NCBI GenBank assembly: GCA_030068145.1
Contig: JAPJBO010000092.1
Location: forward strand, 186,001 to 250,000
DNA from: Diplonema papillatum
Taxonomy: Eukaryota; Euglenozoa; Diplonemea; Diplonemida; Diplonemidae
Length of the DNA: 64,000 bases
Direction: 5' to 3'
The notes below the pieces were generated by a model. That model was not told the origin of the DNA. It saw nothing but the letters and a program-made list of their open reading frames with translations, and did not search any database. The position numbers and the translations under genes are program-made. Below are positions 14,119-39,360 of this stretch, piece after piece (position 1 is the stretch's first letter; every line of letters begins with the position of its first letter).

Positions 14119-14290
14119 GCATAGCAGTGCATAGCAGTGCATAGCAATGCACAGCAATGCACAGCAATGTACAGCAATGCACAGCAATGTGCACAGCAAC
14201 GCACAGCAACGCACAGCAACGCACAGCAACGCACAGCAACGCACAGCAACGCACAGCAACGCACAGCAATACATAGCAATGAATAGCAGC
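14119..14290 (+). repeat. 10-bp tandem array
   Basis: About 17 units of ATAGCAGTGC / ACAGCAATGC / ACAGCAACGC, with runs of identical late-type units at 14190-14265. The order of variants suggests step-wise local expansion. Any ORF across it is period-driven. Confidence 0.95.
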
Positions 14291-14759
14291 GAAGCGGAGC
14301 CACTTTCTCTGCAACTCCACTTCGATCCTCGGGAACTGATCCGCAAAGAGGTTTTACTTTATTTTATTATTGCTACAGCGCGTCTCGCGAACCGAACAAG
14401 GCAAGCGTAAGCTCCCGTGATCTGAGGAGGCAGGGAAGTGCCAACGATCCAGGTTTCGGCCTGACAGAAAGACGGGAACCACGAGCGTTTTGAACGTCGG
14501 CGGGGGAAGAATAAAAAAATCGCCGGGAAAACGCAAAACACAGCGTTTTCAGGAACGATAGGTGGGGGGTGGCTTTCACAACGGTGCGCGCGAAGGTGTC
14601 GGGGCCGGAGGGCAGATTCGGATGTTAAAAGCCGCCATTGACCCTGAAGCACCAGGTTGCTCGTGCAAGGCTGTGAACATGCCGAAGCGGTTGCGGGTTC
14701 GTTCTTGTTGAACAAAGAACAGGCCGTGCCCGCGCGAACGTGCTTGGGCACATTTTCGC

Positions 14760-17700
14760 TTATCTTTTTTGCACCGAGGTTACGTACTTGGACAAAGTTG
14801 CGGAGGGTGCCAGCTCCGCCCCGAGCCACCGAAACGACAATTGACCAAGGCGCCCCAGAACCACCCCCCATAAACGGTCAAGATCTGCAAACCCCAGGAA
14901 TCTCTGAACTAATACTCTGGGTAGTTTCTGAAATAAAATCTGGGCGCACACCTCGAACACGTGTGTCAATCCGCGTTTTTTGGCATATTGAGCGGGTGTC
15001 TGTCCTAGACACGGCGAAGCCCACGCAGCACCATCGAACTTGTCAAGTGGGGTTGCTTTTGGGTTGTCGAAGATGTCACGTTTGGCGCCGTGTTGCAACA
15101 TCATGATGACACCGTCCGCGTGTCCCTCAAGCACGGCGTAGTGCAACGGTGTTCTGCCGAGATAGTCCTGTAAGGTAGTTCAGTTTTCTGCGCCCAAGCG
15201 GACCAGGAGCATTGCACGTATCGACAGCCATCTTCACACAGTAGAGGTGCGAAAACTACGAAAACGCTCGCCGAGAACGCCCCACTGCTTCACAGGTCAG
15301 CTTGGCAACATTCTGGAGCTCAAGTAAGGTGAAACACCACCAGAGCCTCCTCCTGGATGGCTCCTCACTTTTCTGCGCCTTGCAGTCAAGTCACCGAATG
15401 TCCTACCAGCAGGCACACACACACTCTGAAGCTGGCAACCTCTCAGACACACGATCTTATGGACCATGGCCTGTGGAACTTAACCGCAAAAGTCGGTAGC
15501 CTACGGTTAAGTTCCAATGATGACCTTGTACTTATAGAAGTTGCCAATGAGCCGTTCCAGCGACTTACAACAGCCTGGCAAATACAGGCCTCCACAAATT
15601 TTGCCCTGTACGAAAGTTAGAAAACCCCCAAAACCCCGACCAGGAAAACTCCCCAGAACCCAGAACCCCCATTCACCCCTGGTCCTGAATCTCACCTTTG
15701 TGTTGCCGACAATCAACCGGGGTCGATGTGCACTCTGGTGTCTTTCGACGTTCTTGCTATCCTGGTGCATTTTTTCAAACCAGCCAATGTAGTGAAGCTA
15801 TTCCCCTAGCTGTGTATGTATGTTGTGCAGCAACGAAAGATGGGAGCAACAAACCTGTTTGCTGAGCATCTCTTTCAGCGGTATTGGCTTTTCGCACAAC
15901 AGACTCTTGCCAGCGATTGACGTGCTCTGGTCTGAGGATAACGAGGGACCCAGACTGTCGGTCTCATCGGTCTGCCGGTAGCTGCCGTTGCTGTTGATGT
16001 AGCTTTGCGACAACGATGTGCACTCGACGTGGTCCGAATGGTACGCGTTTCCGGTCGGAAGCAAGACGCTCTTCACGAGCATGGCCATGCACTGCGAGGG
16101 TTACGAGGGGGTATTAGAGCATGATAAATCCGATACTGCCCCCAGTAAGTAATGCCGTTCTTGTTAAAACATATGTGACGCTGCACGATTCTGGAGTATA
16201 GCTAACGAATGTGCCTGCACTGCGTTATCACCATGACGAATACCAATACGACACATTTGCACACACCTCGGGATGGTGGAACATTGCAGCGTAGTGGAAA
16301 GCGTTTCTCTTGTCGACATGGTTCGTGAAGAAGAGATTGATGTGGTCATGCGGCAGCAGTAAAAGGGATCGAAGCACATCTTCCTTTTGCAAAATAAGCG
16401 ACAGGTGAAGCGGAGTCCAACCGTGGACGCAGGGTTGCCAGCGCATGCTGTCGTCTGGTGCTGCGTCAAGAAGCATGTGCACCAACTCTGTAGAGCCGAG
16501 TTCGATGGCCAGCGTAAGTCCTGATTTCTTGAAGTCCTTTTGCCACCCCCTCTGTTCGCAGTGGACGATATGGCCATCCCACGGGTCTCCGCAGCGTATA
16601 GGTGAGAACGGGCTAGTGGTGAACAAGCTTAGCAGGCAAGACACCGCGTCGACTTGGTAGTTCACGATGGCTTCTTGCAGCGCGCTTCGCAAAAAGTCTT
16701 CGGAGCGCGGGTGCGACTTGCCACTGCTGTACAGGATTCTAATCATTACAACGTTCCCCAACCCAGCGGCCACACTCAGTGGCGGTAGCCCTTCCGCCGA
16801 CAGAGCGTTTGCGTCCGCCCCCATGTCTAGCAGCAGAATCAGGACGTCGACAAAGTTATTACGCACCGCGCGATGAACCGACGTTCCGCCGTCCCTGTCC
16901 CGGCTGTTGATGGCGGTAATATTCGTCTTGCGGAGGCACGCGGTCACGGACGCTACGTTGCCCGTGTCGATTTCCGACGCCAGCATCTGGACTTCGAAAC
17001 ACACTTCCACCGAGCCGCTTGAATCTGAACGCTGACTGCTGTCCGCAGTGCTGAGTTTCCCGCTTTCAATGAGCGGTGCCCGCAAAGGTATGCTGAGCTT
17101 CATTCGATCGTTGAAGCGTTGCAAGTACTCCTTGTCTTGTCTGTACAGCGGTTTGCCCAGGGCGGCCCCGAAGCAACAAAGTGGCGCGAACAGCGTGGCT
17201 ACTGTGTGCATGTTGTTGAAAATGCTAGGGCTGAGGTCGAATGTGTCATGGAGCCAAACCATCAGCAACAACGTCAAGGCGACGACAAGAACTGCCACCA
17301 CATCGCAGAGGCAAGAGGAAAGGCACGGGTGCCACGTCGAAGGATCGGACAGCTCCCTCGTAAACCACAGCACTGGAACCGCCGAGAGAGCGACGTAAGC
17401 GGACAAGACCCTCCAAAAAAATGCGTCTGCTCCACAGTACCCGTACGTCATCATGTCCCAGCCGTTCATGCACGGTAGCAACATGAGCGAGATGAAGTGC
17501 GTGAACAGCACCACCCCTAGCCAGCGCGGCGCCATGGGACGCGTGTTGTTCACGAACAGACGAGACCAGCTGTATTGTTTGCAGATCAGGCTCCCAACAA
17601 ATAGCAGATACCCGCCCGATCTCGCAGCTGCCATGAGCCAGCAGTAGACTGGCACGGCGGGGATGTCTGGTTGCAAAAAGAACTGCCGCTCGACGAGTTG

Positions 17701-17958
17701 CGAAGCGAACATGACAGCCCCCCCGCACGCAGTCAAAATGCTGAACTCGGGAAGTCGAACGGACACAGGCAGCGACCGATGTTTTCGAAGCATGGCAACG
17801 CAGACGAGGGCCAACACGGCGTAAAGGACGCATCCCAGGCCCGCCGCGCCGGAATTGAACACGGATTGCGCTCGCGAGACGGTAGGTCTACTATGGATTC
17901 TGTTCGGAAATATTGCATCGTCCAGTGTAACACCCCACCAGGACGTGTGCACCCGCAT
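14760..17958 (-). CDS. Class C GPCR-like seven-transmembrane protein with C-terminal ankyrin repeats
   Basis: Exons: 17958-16267, 16091-15855 and 15167-14952 or on to the stop at 14760. Introns have GTGTGT..CGCAG (175 nt) and GTTTGT..TACAG (687 nt) ends, all in phase 0; reading through gives 778 residues. Seven hydrophobic segments lie at about 38-57, 72-89, 104-125, 147-163, 179-199, 218-236 and 250-269. Family C hallmarks are visible: PEFSIL leading into TM2, C106 at the top of TM3 with C175 in the second extracellular loop, FVGSLICKQYSWSRLF closing TM3, and LWFTRELSD after TM5. Residues 320-564 hold ankyrin-type repeats (SVHRAVRNNFVDVLILLLDM; GWTPLHLSLILQKEDVL; RNAFHYAAM) and exon 3 adds RTPLHYAVLEGHADGVIMML. 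No venus-flytrap domain is seen; only 37 residues precede TM1, and upstream exons are possible. A GTGTGC donor after 14952 would add further exons. Ligand unknown. Confidence 0.75.
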
Positions 17959-18059
17959 CGGGGCGCCCCCGCCGCTGCGATCGCAGCGCTATTTCTCGGC
18001 CGACGTTGCACGTCTCGGGGTGTGGAGGCAATCTTGTCCGGTCGGGTTTAGAAGACTCG

Positions 18060-19150
18060 CACGGTCCTGCAACCTGCACCGCTTACGATGAACTCAACTA
18101 AAAGAAGGGCTTATTGGTGGTCAGTCTAGCCATGGTCAACTACGGGCCCTTTTTTTTTTTAGAGTTAAAGTTCGCTTGAGTTTTTTGGGGGAGCTTGAGG
18201 TGGCTTTTGTCTTCTATGCCCAATGTCCTTGATTTGGGGCTTCTGCTTCCAGCCGACTCCACCTGCGGGAGGGTTGCCCTGGTGCCGTCCTGGAATCTGG
18301 GCGGTGTCTGAAGAGCGTGTTCGGTGACAAGTTCCGCCTCATTGCATGCTCCGACGAAGTGGGTGAAGGGGCCCCTCCACTGGATTTGGAGCCTGGGCTG
18401 AAGCGGATAAAACCTATCGTCTGCATAACCTAGAGGGTGTTGTGACCACCTGGTAACCCCAGGGCGACTTTTGAAGGAAGGTCGGTCCTGTCTTGGTCTT
18501 GTTCGATTCCGCCGGGAGTTCGATATGAAAAAATGCAAGATTGACTGAGAGGCTGCCTGGCAAGGCCAGGCGTATGAGTACGGGATCGTTAGGGTCTCAA
18601 TTTCCCGTGCGGATAACTGAAGGCTAGCGGCCCCGGAGTGCGAGCTGCCCGGGGGAGTGAGGGCTAACTTCGAACAAAAGACTGGGGGGGTAGGGGGTCG
18701 TTGTTATTGGTGCTGTCTCCTTTCTTTTCCACTCGTTCTCTTCTCTACTCACTGGGGGGGGTCAAATGTATGTCGCCGGGCAACTTTTGCAAACCTCATA
18801 GATTAAGGCATTTTATGCCGGAACCCGGCTCGTCTGAGCTAATCCGCGACGAAAAACGTATTTCGGGTGGGGTTGTGCGTAAAATGGGCTCATAAAACCA
18901 CTTGTTGGTAGTGCTTTTTTTGTGTCCCCATTTGGTACCAGCCACTCTGCTGCTACCTGCTGTCGGAGCTTTTTTGCGAGATGAGGGTAGAACAGAGTGT
19001 GTGTAGCGGGAAAGAGAGTTGAAGTATGGCTAAAGATAAAGTGGTGTCACCTGAGGGGGTAATCTCAGGGCCGCCCACGTGATAAGCCGATAAGCAGTGT
19101 GAACTTGAAATGCAGGTACCACAGGGGCAAGCTTGCATTTGTCATAGGCT
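18060..19150. other. Intergenic stretch, no gene seen
   Basis: It holds family E copy 2 (18145-18240: a T-run, then AGAGTTAAAGTTCGCTTGAG) and otherwise only short ORFs. A minus-strand frame near 18430 contains YADD by chance; its surroundings do not look like a reverse transcriptase. Confidence 0.5.
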
Positions 19151-19154
19151 AGGG

Positions 19155-21323
19155 TTATTTGAATACGTCGTCCGAGGACGATCTCAAAGCGGACGAGGAC
19201 GGTGATAATAGGCTGGTGATATCCAGCTCCATTCTTCGTTTGTTGCGCTTTCGCGCCGGCTGTCCTGCCGAAGCAGTCGCTCGAGGGGGCGATCCTGACA
19301 TGGATGAGGATGAAGTCGAGGTGGCAGGGCTGGTGATATCCAGCTCCATTCTCGAAATGTTGCGCTTTCGCGCCGCGTGCTTTTTTCCGGGTTTTCCCGC
19401 CGGGTCATTCGGTGGTGTCGGGAGTCGGGCTCTTTTCTGCCCCTTTCTTGGTGGTGTCGCTCGGGCCGGCTCGGTCGGAGCGTGCTTTTTCGCCATCTTG
19501 GCCGCCTTTGGGGACGCTTGACGCGTCCTCTTCATGCGCGGTGGTGTCGTCGGCTTCTGTCGGCCCTTCTTCCGCGGCGTTGTTGGCTTCGGCTTAGCGG
19601 GGGCTGGCTTCGGGGGCGCTGGCACGTGGTGGCCCTTTTTGCAGCAGGCTGACGGCCGCCGTTCCGCTAGCGTCGGTAAGCCGCGGCAGTCGTCACACGG
19701 ACCGCGGGCGTGTTCGCGGCAGTCATGGTGGCCGGCCTTGCAGCACGCTGTTGGCGTGTTGCACTCCACGCATCTCGTCATGCGGTGCCGGTCGCAGACG
19801 GCCGGAGGTAAGCCGTCGTTGTCGGCGTGGTGGTGTCGGCAACATGCCTCCACCGTAGGGCCGTGGTGGTGTCCGAGTGCGCGACAGACTGCGCACTTCC
19901 CTTTGTGATGGGTAGCGCACTTGGGGGCATTCTTCGTCGCCTCCGGCACTGCGTGTGGGAGGTGCAGGGGATCCGGGTTGGCCAGTGGCGCTCTGGGGAT
20001 TACCCGTCGCCGCGCTCTGTCCGTCCGCTCGGGCGGGTCGCCGGCGCTGTGCCGTAGCCGGTTTTCACCTGCTGCATGATGGTCGGCCCGGTTTCGGGCA
20101 TGCGGTGGCGGGGCCGGGGCTGGAAGCCGGGTACGCTGCTCAGGCCTATGAACGACAAGGCTGTAGTTTTCGACTTGAAGTCGCCAGGGAGGCACTTGCC
20201 GAGTTGTTGTTGCACGGCCAGCTTGTTGATTGCGCTCAACATGCAGCAACAGTGCCTTGATGTCGAGGCCCGAGAACAGCTCGAAGTCGATAGCTGCCTC
20301 TACTGCTGCCATGTCGCCATCCGATGACCATTCGAGGCCCGAGAGCCAGTCGATCGCTGCCAGGAATGTCCCTTCGTCCCAGTAGCGTAGCCACGCCCAG
20401 GCCGGGGCGATGCGCCGGAACGGGAACTCGCGTTTCGCCGTTGGCATCTGCGCGCAGCGCTCCCAGGGGGTCGCCGCCTTACGTTCTAGCCATCTAACGC
20501 TGATCCGGCGCGCCCGCTCCGCCAGGATCTCTGCCATCAGCGCTTGTACCGGCCCGGCAAATTCCCGTGTCGCCGGCGTCACGATTCCGTGCTCCCGCAG
20601 GCAGCTCGGCCAGAGCCTCCTGTCGGACTGTGCGATCCCCGCGTACTCGGGCTTCGTGCGTATGTTCTCGAAGGCCGTGCAATCCCAGTAGACGTGGTGC
20701 TCGTCTTCCAATGCTCCCGAGCCACACAACGTACAGGCGGGGCTTCCGCCTTGGCGAAATCTCGACGTGTATTCGGCGGTGTTCACGCCACCTGCGAGGG
20801 CAACCCTGATCAGCAGCGCGTTCTGGGGCGGACAGTGGCGCGTTGTCCATAGAGCGTTGGTGGACTCGATCGCGATGTTGGTGATGCCGGAGAAGCTTGG
20901 CCGTCGTGTTTCCAACCGCTTCCACAGTCGGTTCCGCAGGTTGTCGCGGATGATGTGATTTCGCGAGGAGGCGGACATTGCCAGGGGTCGGAGTGCAGCT
21001 CCGTCCAGGTTGACGGACGACGGCGGGCCGCCGTTCCACGTGTGGCCGCAGGGTTGCAGGCCGTGCCTTACCGCGGTTCCCACCGGGCCAAGGGCTGCGG
21101 TCACTCGTTCGCCGTATAGGCGCCGGACTTCCGTCATCAGCGGCATCAGGTGCGGCAGTCTCCCACAGGCGCTGTAGAAATCCGCGGTTATTCGGTACGC
21201 CGTCGCCGTCGCAGGGTGCGTCAAGTGGGCTTTTTCGAGGACTCCCAAGACTACTTCCGAGGAGCGCTTCGGATTCTTCGGCCCCCAGATCGCTCTCGTT
21301 AACGCTGTCGCCAGCTTCTCCAC
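19155..21323 (-). pseudogene. Non-LTR retrotransposon C-terminal region: zinc finger, His/Cys module, basic tail
   Basis: A 722-codon open frame has no ATG at its start and continues, after frame breaks, from the RT at 21324-21935. Early residues (ATALTRAIWG...) fit the RT-distal region. A CCHC finger typical of non-LTR elements lies at C197-C200-H209-C215 (CTLCGSG...EHHVYWDC). Around 340-380 the spacer (WLSGLEW..., AIDFELFSGLDI) matches the spacer of the element at 24194-25987. In place of the RNase H of that element this one carries, at about 468-575, a module of repeated Cys/His pairs (CATHHKGKCAVC, CCRHHHADN, CVEC, CCKAGHHDC, CDDC, CCKKGHH). The tail is very basic and contains two copies of RKRN..RMELDIT. 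The frame is long for a dead gene, so this part may have decayed only recently. Confidence 0.75.
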
Positions 21324-21935
21324 GGCTTCAGTCGTAGGGGGCGCGAACGATATTCTCGCGAGAGCGGCGGGCAGGATGGCTGATTGAACGATGAGGGTTT
21401 TCTGCTGCCTCGGAATTGGGACGTGCCGTAGGAAGAGTCAAAGTGGTCGCGGCCGCTGCGTGAGGTGCTCACCTTAGCCCCCAGGCACTTCAGCGATTCC
21501 TTCTGTGCGAACTGCTCGCCCGTGCTGCTGCGGAAGATCTTCGTCCTACGGCCCAGCCCCGTCGAACGTTACCGTCTTCTCCATGTTCAGCGACATGCCG
21601 GTCAGCGCGCAGAACTCATCGACTAAGTCCGCGCCCCGTTGCAGATCTGCCTCGGAGTGCTTCGCCAACAAATTCGCATCGTCTGCGTACGACTGCGTCG
21701 ACACGCCTGGTGCCTCGACTTTTACCGCCTTCATCAACACTGACAGCAGCGCGTTGATCAGGATGACCGAGATAGGGCACCCTTGCAGAATGCCGTTCGT
21801 CACCTGAAACTCCTTTCCGACCCCGAGGGGGAGCTTGAACCGCCTGACGAGGGTGTCGTAGATGGACTTCAGCGGTTTCAGAATCCGGGAGTGGAGCCCG
21901 AGGTCCTGCATGAGGCGGAGGATATGCAGCAACAA
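21324..21935 (-). pseudogene. Reverse transcriptase fragment with frameshifts
   Basis: Residues encoded at 21935-21546 cover RT fingers and palm: a long helix, LPLGVGKEFQVTNGILQGCP (motif B region) and the active site SYADDANLL, then a helix ending GMSLNMEKT. Downstream the reading changes frame near 21540 and again near 21440 (KIFRSSTGEQ..., then RQQKTLIVQSAILPAALA) before joining the frame at 21323. The 5' side is cut at about 21923, where family B repeat sequence begins in the opposite orientation. The copy is therefore inactive. It belongs to the same element as 19155-21323. Confidence 0.85.
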
Positions 21936-22340
21936 TCTGTGACGATAGACTGCACAATAGTAGTAGCTAAGTCAGGGAGAAGAACGGAGCAATACTTACA
22001 AACAAATGAATAACTTAAGGTGGCCGCTTGAGCGGCGCCGATCCGAGCGCACAGTGACACGTCGACGGTATTTGCAGTTTAGGATGGGGCTGCCGTCATG
22101 AGCGTTGACGGCAAGCGAGTGTCGGCAGAGGGGGCAGTGGTCGGAGCAGGCTTGCGCGTGGCAGGTCAGCGCTGAACAAATGTGAGTTGGTCGATGTACT
22201 TCAGCGTTGTACGAGGCACATAGGTCTACAGTCGCGAAACGCGCTGTAGCAACAAAGACGTCTTTGTGGATAGGGAAGTACCAACGATCCAAGTTTCAGC
22301 GCCTGACAAAAGACAGGAACCACCGTGGACTGCCAAACAG
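21923..22340 (+). repeat. Dispersed repeat family B, copy 2
   Basis: It starts ATGCAGCAACAATCTGTGAC directly at the truncated 5' end of the RT pseudogene and carries the blocks described for 13402-13800, then CCAACGATCCAAGTTTCAGC near 22280. The minus strand encodes the ICSALTCHAQACSDHCPLC stretch. The abrupt junction suggests that one element inserted into or recombined with the other. Confidence 0.8.
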
Positions 22341-22343
22341 ACT

Positions 22344-22728
22344 TCAGTGTGTGGCTAAAGACTTGTTCCGCAGGAAATCTGCTCTGATGTCCATGAGCAT
22401 GGAGCCAAGAGATTTGTGGTCCGGAACCTCTCGAAGGGAGGCCCCATCAGGACGCGTTACAGTTCGTACGTTTCGCGATCCCAGGACTACTAACACTGTC
22501 TTGCATACGCCGTAGTTGACCTTCAGGCCGTACTTCGCGGCTGCTGTGTGCAGAAGCACGCTGGCTGCTGCTGCGCAACCCAGGCAGATGCAGTTGCTGG
22601 CTGTGTGCAGAACGTCCAAGATGCATGCTGGCTACTTTTTCAAGCCGCAATGTAAGCACCGCCGTAGCAAAGCCAACCCGCTCATTAGCTTTCTCAATGC
22701 CCCAGTCGAACCCAGATGTCCAAAGCAC
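22344..22728 (-). pseudogene. Second reverse transcriptase fragment
   Basis: The minus strand encodes, across two frames, ASVLLHTAAAKYGLKVNYGV followed by CKTVLVVLGSR and a KSLGSML. This is the pattern just after the YxDD site of non-LTR reverse transcriptases: the helix, the GLKVN..K turn and the YLGS motif. The YxDD itself is not present. It is unlike the RT at 21546-21935 in sequence and so comes from another family. Confidence 0.65.
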
Positions 22729-23021
22729 CTGACAACTGAGCAGATGGGCAAGACAAGAGTTTGCAAGGATGGTGAGGGGTAGAGTGCGAGTGATTGTGGG
22801 GTGCGGGTAGAGTGGTACGGCGAGGGATGCCCGTTTGCACGTACCTGACCGAGGTTCAGCGCGACATCAGAAAAGCAGGATACACCCCCGAACGACAAGT
22901 CACACGAGCAATAAATACTTATTTGTGGAGGGGGGGGGTTGCCGGCAGCGTCCTTTATGCTTGTGGACACCGCCAGGGACAAACGAAAACGCTAAAGAGG
23001 GGGAGGGTGGGGGGAGGGGGG

Positions 23022-23600
23022 ATTGCAAGAACGTGCTTGGAATGGATGTGCTGGTCCCGTCTGCGCCGTGTACTGTACCGGTCCTTGAAGCCTCTGACAC
23101 ACGCATCATCAAACAGGACAACAGTGTGAGCCTGGTTTGTCAGGCGGCTGCTCGTAGCTCGTTACAGCCAGGACCACTCGTGCTGCTAGAGCATATGCAT
23201 ACGGCGGAGAGCATATGCATATCCGTCACAAGGAGAAGGCTCCTTGGACCGTGACTGAGTAGTCAGTTCAACGACTCAGGCCCCCGGCCTGATTGTTACT
23301 TGTCTTCTTTTTACGGTGGCATTCTGCGACTAAACTCCGCAGGGCAGGGGGTTACCATGTGCAGCACCAATGGCTTAAGCACGAAAAGGAAAAGAATGCG
23401 AGGAAGGAATCCTGCGAGCTAAACAGCATGTGGCGATACGCGAAGTGTCCTGCTGGAATGGGGAGGTTGCAAGAACGTGCTTGGAACGAATGTGTGCTAA
23501 CACCGCACTGGACCCATCTGCACCATGCTTCGGCCCTTTGAACTCCGGTCACGTACGGCGAGCCATCATCAGTGCGGTGCTTAGACAGGACAGCGGTGCT
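23022..23600 (+). repeat. Dispersed repeat family A, composite copy
   Basis: The unit starting TTGCAAGAACGTGCTTGGAA occurs at 23025 and again at 23466. The approximately 310 bp between the two (from CCGTCACAAGGAGAAGG to the GGAATGGGGAGG just before the second unit) match the corresponding segment at 50375-50646. The structure is therefore unit, spacer, unit, with the same order as at 50153-50735. Confidence 0.85.
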
Positions 23601-23868
23601 GGTCTCGTTGGCGAAAACGCTAGAAGGGGACATGGTGCACTAGGATGGTACCTGGGGTTTCAACGAGCAGGGCGGGCGCTCGTCCGAGACGGCAGCGGCA
23701 AGCATTGGCGTTACGAGCAAATCATATGCTGCAACGCGTGTAAAGCGGTCGTCGCCTGGTGTAAACAAATGCATCAGATGCGAGTAAATGTCAACGTCAC
23801 GATAGACGACTTCGAGTCACCGCAGGCTATCTCCCACTCCTCTTCACCAAAAGGAAGCTGCGTTCCGT

Positions 23869-24135
<267 letters not shown>

Positions 24136-24193
24136 AGAACCTATTTTAACGTGGCCCCCCTCTTAGCGAGAGTGCGTCCACGCGCGGCTTCTT

Positions 24194-25987
24194 CTAGGTT
24201 ACTGCTGATGCTCCCCCGGGCTGCTGATGGGGGCCTGGAGTTTCATGCGGGCCGGAGTGGTGCTTGAGGCAGCATGGTCTTTCTTCCTCCGTCTCTCTGC
24301 ACCGCTCTAGTCCATGAGGTCGGCAGTGTTCGGCTTCTGGACGTGGGCACTGTCGGCTGCGTCGCGCGCACACAAGTTCCTTGACTTCTCGTCCGCCCGG
24401 GCCCTCCTTCTCCTGGGGTCTAACCGGGCTCCGTGGGGCTTCCCTTCGAGTTCCTTCCCTGCGGTATTCGTCGACGTTTTGCGACCTCGCCCGTCTGGCT
24501 CCGGGTTGCGACCATCCTTCGGGGTATGTTTCCTCCGGCTGAAAAGTAGCGGCCCATGCCAGGTGCTGCGGGAACAGCGGTGTCTCCTCTGCAGAAAAGT
24601 GATCGCTTTGTACATGCTCCCTGACACCCAGGATAACGTCCTCGGCCGCTCTCGTGATCTGCGCTCTGCACGATACTCCCCGCACAATGGACCCTCCAAG
24701 CGACGTTAGTACTGTCGTCGGCGTGTCGAACCCGAAGTGCCATGGCCGCTTCGTCACCTTCGTGTATGAGCTTCCCAGCTCAATCAGGCTCAGTGCCTTC
24801 CCAAGGAGTGACTTCTGCAACTGTCGCAGCAGCAGCATCTGCTCCTGTCGGGGTGGCCGGCTCCGCTGCACTACGTCCATCGCCGCGTTGCTGAGCGCGT
24901 CCGCATCGCGGTTGCGCTCCCGCCGAACGTGTTCGACTGCCACTTGTAACCGCTGCTGGATGGCGCTTATGCGGGTACTTGCGCGGGTGAGCATCGGCCT
25001 TAGCTGCTCAGAGCAACTTGTTCGTCGTGTCACTTGGCCCACTGCGAGGGCGGAGTCGCCGCGGACCACGCAGCGCACTTCCCGCTCGACTCTTACTTGC
25101 TGAAGGAGCTCTAAGCTAGCCAGGAGTCCTTCATACTCCGCGACGTTGTTCGTGCGCACGTTTGGCAGGGGCAGTACAATCTCCGCTTCTTTCTTGCCGT
25201 TCCGGTACAATACAGCCCCTGCTCCCGCTACTGCAAAAGCGGTGCCGTTTCCACGCGCACCTCCGTCGAAGTACACTGCGATTCCGTCTTCGGCTTCTTC
25301 GTCCGGCAGCGTGTCCCGTGCTGTTGTCGGCTTGTTCCTGGGGACTTCGGGTGGCGGGGCGTAGAACCGATTCTTCACCGGGGGCAGCTTGCACCCCGTT
25401 TCCAACTCAAAGGCTACCGCTAGCTCCATGTAGCTGATTCCCGTTTCCTGCCCCGGCGACGCCCACTTGAGCGCTTTCAGCCAGCCCGTGAAAGCTGTCC
25501 AGAGGCTCGGGCCATGCTTCCATTTCGAGGCGGTTGCTGTGTGTGGGATGTCCGGTACGCTCAAGACCCGGGGGACCGTCGGTACCCATCCTCGCGGATA
25601 CTCTACCGTCCGGTGGTGTCGCGTGGACCGATCCGCCAAACCATCCGCTTCCTGTCTGGCCACCAGTACCGCTACGAAGAACCTCTGCAGTCTCACCACT
25701 ACACGGAGACGCTGGTGCTCGTCGATGGGCAGCGGGTATGCGTTTTGCGTTTGGGGGCACAGGGGGACTACTCCACAAAGACGTAGACACGGCGGCCAAG
25801 TTCCTTGGACGTTCTCCAGGTCAGCGTACTCCGACCTCGTTTGCGCCCACGCCGTGCACCTCCAGAAAAGGTGTTCGACTGTTTCTCGTTCCAGCGAGCC
25901 GCAATACTTGCACGGGGCCTCGAGACCGGTTCGCCCTATGGCCGTGAACATTGGACGAAAGGGGTACTTCCCTGCAGAATGTCCCAT
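24194..25987 (-). CDS. Non-LTR retrotransposon C-terminal ORF: zinc finger and RNase H
   Basis: A 597-codon ORF opens with an ATG but is the 3' part of a larger polyprotein. A CCHC finger stands at C26-C29-H39-C44 (CKYCGSLERETVEHLFWRC). A linker with WLKALKWASPGQ and ELAVAFELETGCKL follows at about 169-201; it is shared with the element at 19155-21323. RNase H covers about 236-370 with D241 (YFDGGARGNG), E284 (VAEYEGLL), D311 (VRGDSALA) and D361/D363 (NRDADALSN), so the catalytic set is complete. The remaining 225 residues are basic and of unknown role. Upstream RT sequence is absent, the junction lying near 26000. The 3' end is followed by a long (CA)n run. Confidence 0.85.
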   Translation of the reverse strand: MGHSAGKYPFRPMFTAIGRTGLEAPCKYCGSLERETVEHLFWRCTAWAQTRSEYADLENVQGTWPPCLRLCGVVPLCPQTQNAYPLPIDEHQRLRVVVRLQRFFVAVLVARQEADGLADRSTRHHRTVEYPRGWVPTVPRVLSVPDIPHTATASKWKHGPSLWTAFTGWLKALKWASPGQETGISYMELAVAFELETGCKLPPVKNRFYAPPPEVPRNKPTTARDTLPDEEAEDGIAVYFDGGARGNGTAFAVAGAGAVLYRNGKKEAEIVLPLPNVRTNNVAEYEGLLASLELLQQVRVEREVRCVVRGDSALAVGQVTRRTSCSEQLRPMLTRASTRISAIQQRLQVAVEHVRRERNRDADALSNAAMDVVQRSRPPRQEQMLLLRQLQKSLLGKALSLIELGSSYTKVTKRPWHFGFDTPTTVLTSLGGSIVRGVSCRAQITRAAEDVILGVREHVQSDHFSAEETPLFPQHLAWAATFQPEETYPEGWSQPGARRARSQNVDEYRREGTRREAPRSPVRPQEKEGPGGREVKELVCARRSRQCPRPEAEHCRPHGLERCRETEEERPCCLKHHSGPHETPGPHQQPGGASAVT

Positions 25988-26040
25988 TCGCTATGAAGTA
26001 CAGTGCTCGCATGCAACACTGGTTTCACCATTCCTGCCGA

Positions 26041-26190
26041 AGTTTGCTTAAAGTTGCTTCAATTTTGCTTGAGCAAATTTAAGCAAATTTAAGCAAATTA
26101 AGCGAATTTAAGCGAATCTGAAGCAAATCTGAAGCAAATCGACTTTGCTTTTTTCGGGGGTCACCAACTTTGCTTAAATTTGCTTTGCTT
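26041..26190. repeat. AT-rich AAGCAAATTT repeat
   Basis: Short units AAGCAAATTTA / AAGCGAATTT are repeated, with reversed copies (AAATTTGCTT) at the right end. It fills the space between the truncated 5' end of the retroelement and the inverted-repeat element. Confidence 0.8.
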
Positions 26191-26196
26191 GCCAAC

Positions 26197-27388
26197 TATG
26201 ATATAACCCAATACTCGCAAAAAAAGTATTGATTCAAGCGACAACTGACCGATCAAGCTCTGTGGCAGAAGAAACAAAGACGGAAAGCTCTCCCAGTCCC
26301 TGCACCTAGGTCCCACAGGGGATTGTGCGAGATCTGCGGTGCAAATGGAAGAAAGGAATTGCGTGTCTACAGGCAAGCTTTTATCAAGGGCTAGTTCACC
26401 CGAGGATCCCATGAAGATAGAGGCACCACGAAACGAGGAAAGAACGGAAGATGTGTTTCCGTTTCCTTCGAGAACAAAAGGTTGGAGGCAGAGGACAGGT
26501 TTTCTTATCAGCTTCTTTGGATGCACATACAGTAAGTGTTGCCTAAAGCCAAGTGTCCCGACATGCTTTTGCAGAACGGGCAGTTCTGCTTGACTCGCGT
26601 GTATGGAGGCCGATGGTAGGCGTCATATTGTGCATACAAACCCCTGATGCTGGAAAAGCCAGTCTTTCGGCACATGCAACAAAAGACTGCTTCCTCGGTA
26701 CTGTCCTCTGCTTCAGCAAACACGCCACGGTGTTTCCCTGTTTCCCTACAAACACACGCCTTCAGATCGCCCCCTCGTCTTGCGGGCTACCAAAATACTT
26801 CTGGCCCCACCCTGTCTTTTTGCCGCTGTGCTCACTAAAGCCCACGTTGCGAAGTCGAGTCCAACTTTTGGGTGGCCTGGTCGTTAGCACGAGCAATACA
26901 CTTACACAAGTGTATTGCGTCGTTCGTCAGAACTTCTGGAACTGGTGGAATAGGCGGCGGACGGAGAGGTTTCAGTTGAAAATCAACATGTTTGGTCTGG
27001 AGTTCGAAGGATAGCATGTCGCGTCGAATGTTTGTCGGGAAGTGTGGGATGCCCATCGCTTCCCATGTCGCGGACTTCTTGTTCTCGTTTTTGTCCAGGT
27101 GTGCGGGTTTGCGCTTATGGTGAGGGGCGTGTGGTTGTTGCTTATCTTGGCAATGGTGATGTCTGCAAGCAGGGTTTGGTTGGCCGGACACGGCAGTTGA
27201 TCTGTCTGTGTCCAATTCCTTTCTTCCATTTCGCACCGCAGAACATAGCCATCTCGCGCAAACTCCTTTGGGACCCAGGTGCAGGGACTGGGAGAGCTTT
27301 CCGTCTTTGTTTCTTCTGCCACAGAGCTTGATCCGTCAGTTGTCGCTCGAATTAATACCGTTTGCGAGTATCGGGTTGTATACCATAC
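26197..27388. mobile_element. 1.2-kb element with long terminal inverted repeats
   Basis: The left end (26197-26355) and the right end (27215-27388) are inverted copies of each other. Shared blocks include ATACTCGCAA, GCGACAACTGAC, GATCAAGCTCTGTGGCAGAA, GAAACAAAGACGGAAAGCTC and AATGGAAGAAAGGAATTG. The arms are diverged by perhaps 10 percent. The interior of about 860 bp has only short frames; one minus-strand frame shows two CxxC pairs (CCMC, CPFC) but no transposase motif. It looks like a non-autonomous DNA transposon or foldback element. Target duplications could not be fixed because the outermost bases are diverged. Confidence 0.8.
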
Positions 27389-27434
27389 TTTCCTCAGCCA
27401 ATTGTATGCGAGAGTAGAGTAATTTCTTCACAAA

Positions 27435-27578
27435 ACTTGTCATATGACGAGTAGGTACTTGTCATATGACAAGTATGTACTTGTCATATGACAAGTACAT
27501 GCTTGTGTATAGTACTTGTCATAATATGACAAGTACACGTACTTGTCATATGTACTTGTCATACGTATGACAAGTACG
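27435..27578. repeat. Palindromic tandem repeat ACTTGTCATATGACAAGT
   Basis: Seven or so copies of TACTTGTCATATGACAAG or its halves lie in tandem. Each unit is self-complementary, so the tract can form cruciforms. It starts about 50 bp from the right end of the inverted-repeat element. Confidence 0.9.
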
Positions 27579-28003
27579 TGTGGGTGGGGAATTTTTCGGG
27601 GGCCACCAGGAACCAAAAAAAAAGGGGGGTCTGCAGAAACCCAAAACTGGAAACCAACCCCCTGGTAGGTTTCCAGTGGTCAAAACGATCCGGAAAATGC
27701 AGACAAATTCAACGACGACTCAATCCAGAAAAATTGGTCGGACTGCTCGTTTAGGCTGGAGGTCGGCATTGGCACGTTTTTCAATTCGGCTCAAGACTTC
27801 TGGTTTACAGTTATAGTGTTCACCGAAGTCTTGAGCCGACAATACGCTTGCTTTTGCTCAGGCGACACCTCACATGAGGATGGGGCGAGCTCTGAGCTTG
27901 GCCTGCCTGGCTGTTCAAAACTCCCTACTTATTTTTGCGTTTCCTTCATACGCCGTGAATGCAAACCCCCCCTCCTTTTCAAAAGAACCAACAACGTTTG
28001 TGT

Positions 28004-35497: not shown

Positions 35498-38049
35498 CTA
35501 CTTCCGCCGCCATCTGCCCGGAGCCGCGTCGATGAGCCACTGCTCTTCGACGGCGACGCAGTTGCGCATGTACCTCTTCTTTGTGAGAACCAACTCATTG
35601 TAGACGAGAAGCGCCGGGTGCGCGCGCGACCGAAAGAGGCATGACGTCGGATGCACGCCGACCTCCTGCCGAGCCTCGATCGTCACGTACGACTTGCGGT
35701 CCGCGTCGTACTGCGCTACGTTTTGGAAGAAGCCGTAGCAGAATGCCTTTCTGATGAGGCTTCGCCCATCTTCTTGCTCAGACCGCCGCTCAATCGGTGC
35801 ATCAGCTTGCACATCAGAGAGCTGGGACGCACTCGTCGAGCCAGAAGCGCCTTTGTTCGATAGTCCCTTCTTCTTCTGCTGCGCAGCGACGAGCAGGTCG
35901 CAAAGCTGCTTGCGGACGTCTGTCACCTGCAGCATGCGCCGCTCGTTGATGAAGAGGTGCCGGCACCAGCTCTTCCGGTCGGTCGCAGTTTTCTGTTTCT
36001 TGTAATCGTTGTACAGGTTGAGCAGAGTCAGGTGGTCGCCGTGCGGTGAGGCGAAGGCGGCCCTCGACTTGTCAGCGGCCTCCCGTTCCTTCCGCGTAGG
36101 GTTCGTCAGCACGTTTTCTACAGACAGCATCGAAAGGATGCTAACGACCGACTCGAACACACCGAACTCCAGCGCCGTCAGCAGCGTCTTCGCATGGGTT
36201 GGCTCCAAGGGGAAAGCGCCGATAGTCATGCCCAGCTCGGTCACTTCGCCTGTGGACGAGAGAGCACCCAGGAGGTAGAGAAGGTGCAAGGCTGCGACGA
36301 TGTGCTGGCGCTGCGGGGGGTCGATGAAATCGAAGGAAAGCGGGTTTTCAACGCCGAGGCACTTGAGCTGGAGGACCACCGCCGTGAGGTTCACCCTGCG
36401 GATCTCGGGCTCGGTGGCCGTTGGGAGGGTGAGGAAGGTTTGCTCGGTGTACATGCGGTAGCACTCGCCGCTCTGTACGCGCCCGGCTCTGCCGGAGCGT
36501 TGCTTTGCCTGCGCCTGCGACACTTCTACCTCCACCAGCGACTCCATGCCAGTCCGAGGGTTGTACCTGATGTGTATCGTGCGGTGTGCGAGACTCGTAT
36601 GAAACAAAAAAGCAGTCAAGCAGGGGACAACCTCTGCGAAAAGACAGCTCTGGGATATTATATGCAGTTCCAGGAGATACGGATGGCAGACAGTCAGGTA
36701 CGTTGAACGTTCTGACTAACTTTTGACGGTCGTCTATCCTTGCGTTCTGGCTTCTATTTTGCGATGCAAAATAAAAGCCAGAAAGGCCAAAAAGGTCGCC
36801 CGCTTCGCTCGCATACCTTTTTTCCTTGACCAGTCCGCAGTCTACGACGTAGCGTATGTTGGGTATGGTCAGCGACGTTTCGGCAACATTCGTGGAGAGG
36901 ATGACTTTGCGGGCCCCCTTCGGCGGTGGCACGAAAGCTCGGGCTTGCCGCTCGACGGACAAGTTCGCGTAAAGGGGGACGGGAAGCAGGTCACCTACTG
37001 CGGTGCCGCCGGCCTTCTTTCGGGCTTCGAGGGTCGGCACTTTGTCCTGCAGCAGCCGCAAGCAATCTTCGATCGTGTCTTGGCCTGTGGTTTTGTATTG
37101 TGCCTTGTCGCAGCAAGGACCCCCATCTCTGTCTGCTCCTTTGCCGTCACCGCCGCGTGGTGCAAAAATCGAAGGGAGAAACGCCTGGTGACTCTGGTGT
37201 GCGGTCGAGTACAGAGTGCTCCGTGCTTCAGCCCTTCAAGGACATGACGCGGACCATCAGCGGAACCCGAGTGTCAACACAGGACATGTAGGAGGGGACA
37301 CAAGCCATACCGGTGAGGAAGACGAGAATATCGCCAGGGTCGTCCGGATGATCGACGTGGATTTGCAGGACGGTGCTAACGGCGCCGTCGATGATGTTTT
37401 TGACCGGATCGACCGTGTAGAACGTGTCGACAGGGAACGTGCGCCCACCAACGAAGGCAATGGGGCAGTTGTTCCAGAATCGCGAGAAGACGCCGGCGTT
37501 GAGTGTTGCGGACATGATAACGATCTTGAGGTCCGACCTACGCTGCGCGAGCTGCTTGATCAGACCGAGTAGGATGTCTGAGTTGACGGAGCGTTCGTGT
37601 GCTTCATCGAGGATCAAGATCGAGTACTGGGAAAGGTTGTCCGACGTGAGGAGCTCCCGGAGGAGGATGCCGTCTGTCATGTACTTGATTCGCGTCGCGC
37701 GCGACGTTTTGTCGTCGAAACGCACGCAGTACCCGACGGTGCCCCCCACCTTGCAATTGGCCTCCTCTGCCACCCGGAGAGCCACTGTAATCGCAGCTAT
37801 CCGGCGCGGCTGTGTGACGCCGATGATGCCCGCACCCTTGGCCAGCCGCCGCATCAAGAACTGCGGCACCTGCGTGGTCTTCCCCGACCCGGTCTCGCCG
37901 AGGAGCACCACCGCCTGATTCCGCTGGACCAGCTCCCAGATCCCTTCTTCCGCTTCGGCCACGGGCAGCCGCTGCGCCGTCACGCGCAGGGCCGCCGCTT
38001 GCTTCCGCCTTTTCACGGCGTCGTCGTCATCCTCGACTCGACGCTTCAT
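35498..38049 (-). CDS. DEAH-box ATP-dependent RNA helicase, DHX33-like
   Basis: Three exons, 38049-37311, 37084-36817 and 36566-35498, join in frame to 691 residues. Introns are 226 nt (GTATGG..CACAG) and 250 nt (GTATGC..ATCAG). Motifs in order: basic N-terminus; motif I GETGSGKT at 51-58; PRRIAA; motif II DEAH at 148-151; motif III SAT at 180-182; FLTGQ across the first splice; STNVAETSLTI; YNPRTGMESL across the second splice; motif VI QRSGRAGR. The helicase-associated region (LGALSSTGEVTELG, MAAFPLEP-like IGAFPLEPTHAKTL) and OB-fold domain follow, with HPTSCLFRSRAHPALLVYNE and LIDAAPGRWRRK at the end. Length and the C-terminal motif agree best with the DHX33 branch (about 700 residues, nucleolar, ribosome biogenesis); other DEAH proteins such as DHX8 or DHX15 relatives are less likely. 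The start was chosen at the first ATG before the basic N-terminus. Confidence 0.92.
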
Positions 38050-39360
38050 GGCTAGCGGTGGAGAAAGGAGGTGTGGTTCCCCCTCTATGTGCGCTCCTCC
38101 GCGCGCTCCCCGCTCCCCACCTAGTCTCTGGTTCACGTTTTTGGGGTCACAAAGCACACTGCCTCTCATGTTTGATGACGCTGGGAGAGGGTGTTGTAAC
38201 AATGCGCTTGGAAATGATTGTTGTGCTCAACACCTATCTGCGCCGTGTTTCGCCTTGAGAAGGCGGACGACCACGCCGCTTTGCGTGCTTCCAGCACCCG
38301 CGCGTGACGCTGAACTTGGCCGGTCCGGCTTCAGCACGCAGGAATGTCGATGGCAGTGCACGGCATCGGCAAGTACTCTGTGCAACTCCAGACCTGACAG
38401 ACCGTGTTGAACTGGCAAGAATTGGCCCTACTTTCTTGCTGAGCCTGGAACCGTGCCCATATGCACGATCGCGATGTTGACGGGATTTGAAAAGGAAATG
38501 GGTTTGTTCATATTTTTGTATGCACGGTTGCTATTCGACACGAGAGGTACAACAGACGGGCAGGAAGAATTCTCTCTTCCGGTCCGGACACAACAAAGAG
38601 CGGGGAGCATCGCCGGCTCGACGGCTGGCATGTGCTTGGCGACAGCCCCGCAAAAAAATGGGGGCCTGGAGCAGGCCGATATCTATGAAAAGACAACCGG
38701 GAAGTTGTCGTGTGTGGGCTAGTTTTGCGTTTCAGGCAATCTTCGCTGGGGTGACAGCATTTCGGGTATTGTTGCTGGTGTGTTCTTGTGCGTAGATGTC
38801 GATTCACCTGACGCATCGATGTGCCACGACCATCGCCCAGGCGCCGAGAAGCCACGGTAGTTTGGTAGGTCGGCACCAAGCCCGCAGTACGCCTTGCACA
38901 GGGGAAGGACGAGCAAGTCGGTAAGCTACAGCTGGCAAGGTACCAACAAAGAAGTGGCCGGCGACTCTTCCGGGGGTCTGTGATTCCTTTTTCTTCCAAG
39001 CAACCGCTAAAGGTCCGCTTTCTGAGCCTCCAAACGAGATGATTCGGGGCTGCAGATGCCACAGCCTTCGCCATTGGCGTTTTGCTTAGTTTCAAGTGTA
39101 TTCGGGCCTGGTCAACCTCAACTGCTTCCAGTGGACTTCCACTCGCGCGGCGTCAATAACGTCCGTGAGATTGACCTGCTTCATCAATGCCTGTTTTTTG
39201 TTGTTGATAGGCTCTGATCCGAGACACTGCAAGAACGATAGGGGTAGGCGCAGCCGCGGTCAGCACTGCGTGCTGACGATAAGAGGGTTTAATCATGTCC
39301 CTTCACGACATGGAGTGGTATCGGGATTTGTATTTTTTTTCGGCTCAGTGCGTCGGCATT
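38050..39360. other. Intergenic stretch upstream of the helicase
   Basis: A diverged family A core (CTCAACACCTATCTGCGCCG, then TGTTTCG) lies near 38226. No gene was found. Confidence 0.45.

Follow-up and report, generated by a model that had tools for sequence, protein, structure and literature searches.

A class C-like seven-helix domain fused to a predicted cytoplasmic ankyrin tail in Diplonema papillatum

Protist and algal seven-helix receptors that are fused to downstream enzymes raise the question of whether such receptors can signal without G proteins. Plant 7TM-RGS proteins pair a seven-helix (7TM) domain with an RGS box, a non-catalytic cytoplasmic partner domain, and ankyrin-bearing channels and DHHC acyltransferases are multi-pass membrane proteins whose repeats are usually N-terminal. 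Class C receptors, for their part, carry a defining pair of cysteines, one at the top of TM3 and one in extracellular loop 2.

Among described fusions, the accessory domains of GPCR-bigrams are catalytic (PIPK, INPP, AC, PDE and TKL, with an aspartic protease placed N-terminally), as far as the available portions of two accounts go (PMC6033456, PMC5784254), the former of which also mentions the plant 7TM-RGS proteins. The accessible part of a GPCR survey of choanoflagellates and relatives describes GPCR-TKL/K and GPCR-TK fusions, for which its authors suggest a repeated origin (PMC12716839). Among divergent GABA-B-like receptors of diatoms, a ligand domain is reported in seven sequences, so that other diatom sequences would be without one, and the receptor C-termini have no similarity to other GPCRs or known proteins, according to the part of that paper at hand (PMC3727952). 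The word "ankyrin" is absent from the available main text of the diatom paper (PMC3727952), of the paper on GPCR-PIPKs and bigrams (PMC5784254), of the choanoflagellate survey (PMC12716839) and of a ciliate GPCR survey; in the available text of a fungal GPCR survey it appears once, in a reference title, and "Ank" there denotes a family over-represented among expanded gene sets.

Here we describe a gene of Diplonema papillatum that joins a class C-like 7TM domain to an ankyrin tail. We recognised no description of such a protein in the open-access literature, in agreement with an earlier reading of the locus from its letters alone (the sequence-only reading), which knew of no class C receptor with an ankyrin tail; unnamed database entries may exist.

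Gene model and seven-helix domain

The window analysed here is a 64,000-nucleotide stretch of assembly contig C92 (C92:186001-250000), and coordinates below refer to it unless a contig or other stretch is named. Its minus strand carries an intact three-exon gene of 778 amino acids, from an ATG at 17958 (the first in-frame ATG, taken as the putative gene start) to a TAA whose last base is 14760, which are exactly the limits that the sequence-only reading had assigned. The features of the gene are as follows:

16267..17958, minus strand: exon 1, with an N-terminal tail of about 37 residues, seven hydrophobic segments, a juxtamembrane segment and the first seven or so ankyrin repeats (repeats counted by eye)
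17049..17958, minus strand: class C-like 7TM domain, with a 7tm_3 match at residues 43-263 (profile positions 15-247 of 251)
16092..16266, minus strand: intron 1, GT-AG, phase 0
15855..16091, minus strand: exon 2, with the remainder of one ankyrin repeat and a serine-rich linker, without a Pfam match
15168..15854, minus strand: intron 2, GT-AG, phase 0
14760..15167, minus strand: exon 3, with an ankyrin repeat (LGRTPLHYAV...) followed by a repeat-like stretch (LGQTPAQYAKK..., by eye)
About 50 residues at the end of exon 3, minus strand: C-terminal extension, different in the copy on contig C233
18071..18157, minus strand: 87 bp upstream of the start codon, missing from the C233 copy, where the frame stays open across the site

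Exon 1 alone codes for both the 7TM part and ankyrin repeats, so the fusion is independent of splicing, just as had been proposed: the exon 1 tail matches Ank_2 with E = 5e-24 and 85.1 bits, against a curated cut-off of 27.3. The further ankyrin sequence expected in exon 3 was found there as well (Pfam Ank, E = 3.4e-7). By eye, the repeats begin near residue 325 and number eight or nine, with the serine-rich linker preceding the last one or two, and the best ankyrin chain in the PDB aligns to the protein with E = 3.1e-43. Apart from 7tm_3, the only Pfam families matched by the protein are ankyrin families, and no RGS match was found in the exon 1 frame or in the later exons.

Hydropathy analysis places seven regions within residues 32-272 (32-63, 71-90, 108-126, 142-168, 179-203, 207-244 and 249-272), in keeping with the seven hydrophobic segments noted earlier, and two extra regions, 369-388 and 390-413, fall within the ankyrin repeats; the term "seven helices" here denotes hydropathy together with charge distribution. 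All of the family C motifs named by the sequence-only reading, such as PEFSIL and LWFTRELSD, are present in the translation, as are the TM3-top cysteine and the cysteine in extracellular loop 2. With Pfam, 7tm_3 was the sole family matched by the 7TM region, over 233 of the 251 profile positions. The E-value varies with query length (1.1e-3 and 19.2 bits for a query of 586 residues, 1.7e-4 and 21.8 bits for 303 residues, 6.4e-5 and 23.2 bits for 256 residues), and the curated cut-off of 33.5 bits was not reached at any of these three lengths. Seven control versions of the region, six of them block-shuffled (block length 16, so that the hydropathy pattern is approximately preserved) and one reversed, gave no match to 7tm_3 at a maximum E of 10, a setting at which HMMER filters nonetheless remove most matches above about 0.1. 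The likeness of the 7TM part to 7tm_3 is thus beyond chance by this comparison.

A six-frame search of the 271 Mb assembly with 7tm_3, run exon by exon and so liable to overlook split genes, gave two places at E <= 10, the window gene (E = 0.011, 22.2 bits) and its copy on C233 (E = 0.015), with 2 of 14 prokaryote controls matching in the same search, so that these assembly-wide E-values alone prove little. At E <= 0.001 the assembly yielded no place. Solved structures (PDB) offered no convincing sequence likeness to the 7TM region or to a two-sequence profile; a single phmmer row for the region, RnfE (E = 0.75), was taken as chance. Since the 7tm_3 score lies under the cut-off and no convincing PDB chain emerged, we regard the 7TM part as class C-like by resemblance and do not file it among the class C GPCRs. 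The earlier assignment to that class therefore held in part: the near-full-length profile match (E = 1.7e-4 with the 303-residue query, with none of seven controls matching) and the family marks stood, but 21.8 bits fall short of 33.5, and the TM1-6 exon of a diverged relative on contig C638, described below, has no Pfam match.

The distribution of charges points to an orientation in the membrane. With segments placed by hand and tails left out (the N-terminal tail of the window protein itself holds 4 K/R), the window protein has 9 K/R in its three predicted inside loops but a single one in its three outside loops, and the corresponding counts for the C638 protein are 12 and 6. By the positive-inside rule, this excess would put the ankyrin tail in the cytosol, and we infer a topology with the N-terminus outside and a cytoplasmic ankyrin tail.

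A diverged relative and a near-identical copy

Searched against its own assembly, the window 7TM domain found three places, namely itself, contig C233 (98%) and contig C638 (20%, E = 0.0035). The reverse search with the C638 exon that holds TM1-6 returned itself, C92 (E = 0.020), C233 (E = 0.029) and C105 (E = 0.0061); the last of these (C105:244339-244635) was considered as a further family member but contains two stops within the match and was treated as chance. The gene model on C638, whose exon ends were picked from sequence so that phases fit, is as follows:

L005 (the C638 stretch) 5448-4789, 4637-4525, 4087-3244, 3061-2964, 2844-2752, 2532-2186 and 1961-1819, minus strand: seven exons of the C638 gene

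All introns of this model are GT-AG with fitting phases, and the 765-residue product begins with an N-terminal tail of 12 residues, has TM1-6 in one exon and TM7 in the second, and carries most of its repeats in a frame matching Ank_2 with E = 1.1e-25. The C638 stretches scanned, which cover part of the seven exons, matched ankyrin families only, and the TM1-6 exon matched no Pfam family at E <= 10. The short piece L005:2233-2577, translated in a frame other than that of the gene, had no Pfam match either.

Residues 106-706 of the window protein align colinearly with residues 93-730 of the C638 protein (670 columns at 23% identity; of the 142 bits, some come from ankyrin-to-ankyrin similarity). 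The two proteins have one layout, 7TM domain, ankyrin repeats, linker and last ankyrin repeat, and ankyrin similarity does not account for this identical order. The 7TM parts alone align with 18% identity (6e-8 as a single comparison) and have both cysteines (TM3 and loop 2) in common, as well as a KQY after TM3 and L.D.ST..P after TM5. Taken separately, the last repeat stretch also aligns between the two (E = 8e-13, with 40% identity across 63 columns). For the repeat that precedes the linker, a 45-residue piece found no BLAST match by itself, and the correspondence of that repeat in the two tails was made by eye. Introns at different places, together with the strong divergence, make the split between the two loci look old. 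Given this second, strongly diverged locus with the same layout, the 7TM-ankyrin fusion appears, from sequence comparison, to be an old and kept architecture and not a splice guess or a fresh accident.

We also examined whether ankyrin loci elsewhere in the assembly represent more such fusions. The screen scored 147 of 761 candidates, with at least 20 places, of which 17 rows lay off C92, C233 and C638, and the 10 kb around all 17 (16 stretches) were examined, an approach that an exon-split diverged member could escape. The best tblastn match to the two 7TM domains was one row with E = 0.39, and none of these loci was taken as a further fusion. Several hydrophobic segments within one frame were seen near ankyrin loci at L031 9429-9998 and L035 2674-4572, the latter (minus strand) encoding ankyrin repeats and then the hydrophobic segments and resembling by look the ankyrin-DHHC kind. 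Searches of viral_contigs and genome_contigs (viral and prokaryotic collections) and of the PDB revealed no relatives; these being viral, prokaryotic or solved-structure collections, the result has no bearing on homologues in other eukaryotes.

The copy on C233 (stretch L004) matches the window gene at 97-99%, with window 14913-18070 and 18158-18756 aligned at 97% and 14119-14914 at 89%; beyond these blocks, the 10-kb C233 stretch has only short repeats in common with the window. An insertion in the C233 copy replaces about the last 50 amino acids. A KH gene that follows the window gene at a distance of about 9 kb downstream is present on C233 on the same strand at 94%, which marks C233 as a syntenic contig, and we rejected the C233 copy as an independent paralogue: most probably C233 represents either the second haplotype or a duplication of a large segment, and as such is not independent evidence of a family. 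In a DNA search with a stretch of a DnaJ gene upstream of the window gene, in which 40 of 352 candidates were scored, C233 was absent among the matches listed; the contig reaches only some 8 kb beyond the gene on the upstream side and may be too short to show this stretch. Directly downstream of the window gene lies an array of the 10-base unit GCACAGCAAT (14119-14281), which in the C233 copy extends over more than 1.5 kb (L004 1 to about 1800).

Codon comparison of the two copies revealed differences at 19 of 728 codons compared (of 778), 10 synonymous and 9 non-synonymous (dN 0.0057, dS 0.0208), so that fewer differences change an amino acid than neutrality predicts (P = 0.009 against an assumed neutral ratio of 3:1, with small numbers). 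The first 60 codons contain five of the nine amino-acid changes, including those at codons 40 and 59, which lie at TM1. Codons 60-302 hold one difference, a synonymous one, compared with about 2% difference in the introns, and this near-identity would reflect either purifying selection or local conversion between the copies. In both copies, the open frame and splice sites are intact as far as the insertion, with an in-frame 9-base difference as the only change in length.

Upstream region, proposed working and alternative readings

No ANF, periplasmic-binding or Cache domain was detected in 17950-27900 (three minus-strand frames, Pfam, E <= 0.1), which upholds, over about 10 kb, the earlier view that the gene lacks an N-terminal ligand domain. 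The same search matched RVT_1 and RVT_3 only, and no ligand domain was found upstream of the C638 gene (4.6 kb) or of the C233 gene (4.4 kb), where a weak SelB-wing match (E = 0.013, under its cut-off) was probably chance. The nearest recognised cellular gene upstream is the DnaJ gene (28885-28007, same strand), with the caveat that genes without a Pfam domain would escape this survey. Between it and the window gene lie retroelement pieces at 19155-21437, 21564-21860 and 24881-25228 (minus strand), with a zf-RVT-like ORF (under its cut-off) and reverse transcriptase and RNase H-like matches, as well as a repeat at about 26200-27580 that occurs in dozens of copies across the assembly at 91-98% and parts of which also match inverted, and an uninterrupted TG dinucleotide run of 263 bases at 23871-24133. 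Further off, pieces of a helicase at 35501-38226 (minus strand; OB_NTP_bind, HA2 and DEAD) probably belong to one spliced DEAH-type gene.

The signalling context was surveyed through G-alpha. PF00503 matched in 21 places of the assembly, all inside profile positions 159-262, a stretch that G-alpha has in common with Arf GTPases, and the four places translated (of the top five) all read as Arf-type GTPases. An exact pattern of a G-alpha motif had no matches in the assembly; intron-split genes may escape both pattern and profile. For comparison, six G-alpha paralogues are given for Ectocarpus in the available part of one account (PMC3879662). A brown-algal origin of the assembly, first guessed and then tested with EsV_1_7_cys (PF19114), was dropped, as the assembly had no match to this family; the 14 control genomes had none either, so that this result does not decide the matter.

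We lean slightly towards reading the locus as a functional gene for a seven-helix receptor-like membrane protein with its N-terminus outside and a cytoplasmic ankyrin tail. How it might work is a more tentative matter. The helix bundle, with its TM3-loop 2 cysteine pair, could itself sense a small or membrane-borne signal, while the ankyrin tail would dock proteins in the cytoplasm, and a conformational change of the bundle would alter docking or bring a partner to the membrane, such that the receptor would bring its own docking platform and depend less exclusively on soluble G proteins. Speculatively, the linker rich in serine that separates the repeats might serve as a regulated hinge. This would parallel the direct-coupling model for GPCR-bigrams, minus catalysis, as set out in the available part of that work (PMC6033456). 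The results above support the architecture, its conservation and, by the charges, the topology; sensing by the helix bundle and the handing-on of a change to tail-held proteins we infer. A bolder reading, which we hold to be less likely than not, is that these proteins form a long-standing family of class C-like receptors, either independent of G proteins or modulated by them, in which the bundle senses a small external or membrane-borne signal and switches the binding of an ankyrin scaffold; they would be the sole 7tm_3-like receptors found in this genome.

Several alternatives have to be weighed against this. The 7TM part might instead belong to some other kind of seven-helix membrane protein, be it a transporter, an accessory subunit of a channel or an anchor, with the tail as a membrane-held scaffold, which we consider rather unlikely. 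The weak 7tm_3 score, the C638 TM1-6 exon without a Pfam match, the lack of a recognised G-alpha among the places translated or by motif pattern (introns may hide one) and the L035 frame with both ankyrin repeats and hydrophobic segments speak for such a protein, and ankyrin tails are known on channels and acyltransferases; yet 7tm_3 is the sole family found, over nearly its whole length and in none of the seven controls, and the C638 protein retains the cysteine pair of TM3 and loop 2 as well as the KQY that follows TM3. It is less probable still that the gene is longer, with upstream exons for a signal peptide and an extracellular ligand domain, so that the product would be a class C-like receptor of the usual shape to which an ankyrin tail was added. 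On C233 the frame runs on without a stop for some 100 codons ahead of the ATG, an acceptor-like AG stands just before the ATG of the window gene (by eye), and retroelement insertions could sit inside a long intron, but 17950-27900 gave reverse transcriptase and RNase H-like matches only, the 4.4 kb (C233) and 4.6 kb (C638) upstream gave no ligand domain, and the C638 model likewise begins with a short tail of 12 residues.

That no ligand domain was found for the window gene would also suit a protein that forms a heteromer with another class C receptor, one that binds the ligand; the sequence-only reading had suggested a heteromer partner, and class C receptors do act as dimers. The assembly speaks against this, with the window gene and its C233 copy as the only 7tm_3 places at E <= 10 in 271 Mb (split genes may escape), and we consider such a partnership improbable. 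That the locus is a decaying copy without function seems very improbable: the retroelement matches a few kb upstream and the insertion that makes about the last 50 amino acids different in C233 would fit decay, whereas both copies are open-framed with splice sites intact up to the insertion, differ in length by an in-frame 9 bases and have a synonymous excess, and the C638 model is intact too.

Comparison with known systems

Read as a receptor-like protein, the window product resembles class C or glutamate-family GPCRs in its seven segments, its TM3 and loop 2 cysteines and its weak near-full-length 7tm_3 match, and differs from them in scoring below the Pfam cut-off and in having a C-terminal ankyrin tail. 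Unlike for typical class C receptors, no large extracellular domain for a ligand (ANF/Venus flytrap, PBP or Cache) was detected in the gene or the 10 kb upstream, which makes the protein one more example of class C-like helices for which a ligand-binding domain could not be detected. It is like the plant 7TM-RGS proteins in placing a non-catalytic partner domain on a 7TM domain, with ankyrin repeats in place of the RGS box, and like the ankyrin-bearing channels and DHHC acyltransferases in having repeats on a multi-pass protein, with a different membrane domain.

The fusion may link sensing directly to a protein scaffold. A protein-binding tail in two loci that appear to have diverged anciently would make a clean case: as catalysis by the tail would not blur the read-out, tail baits could name direct partners of a GPCR-like receptor.

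GPCR-TKL/K and GPCR-TK, as described in the accessible part of their survey, are likewise C-terminal fusions to a 7TM domain, with a kinase as the tail (PMC12716839). Of the kinds described so far, the GPCR-bigram, a 7TM domain with a catalytic domain, comes nearest. As in the bigrams of oomycetes and other protists, going by the available text of both accounts (PMC6033456, PMC5784254), a 7TM domain is here fused to a module, predicted to be cytoplasmic, and kept as a gene family; unlike in the bigrams, the accessory domain of the window protein consists of ankyrin repeats only, with no catalytic family in Pfam, and its tail is non-catalytic.
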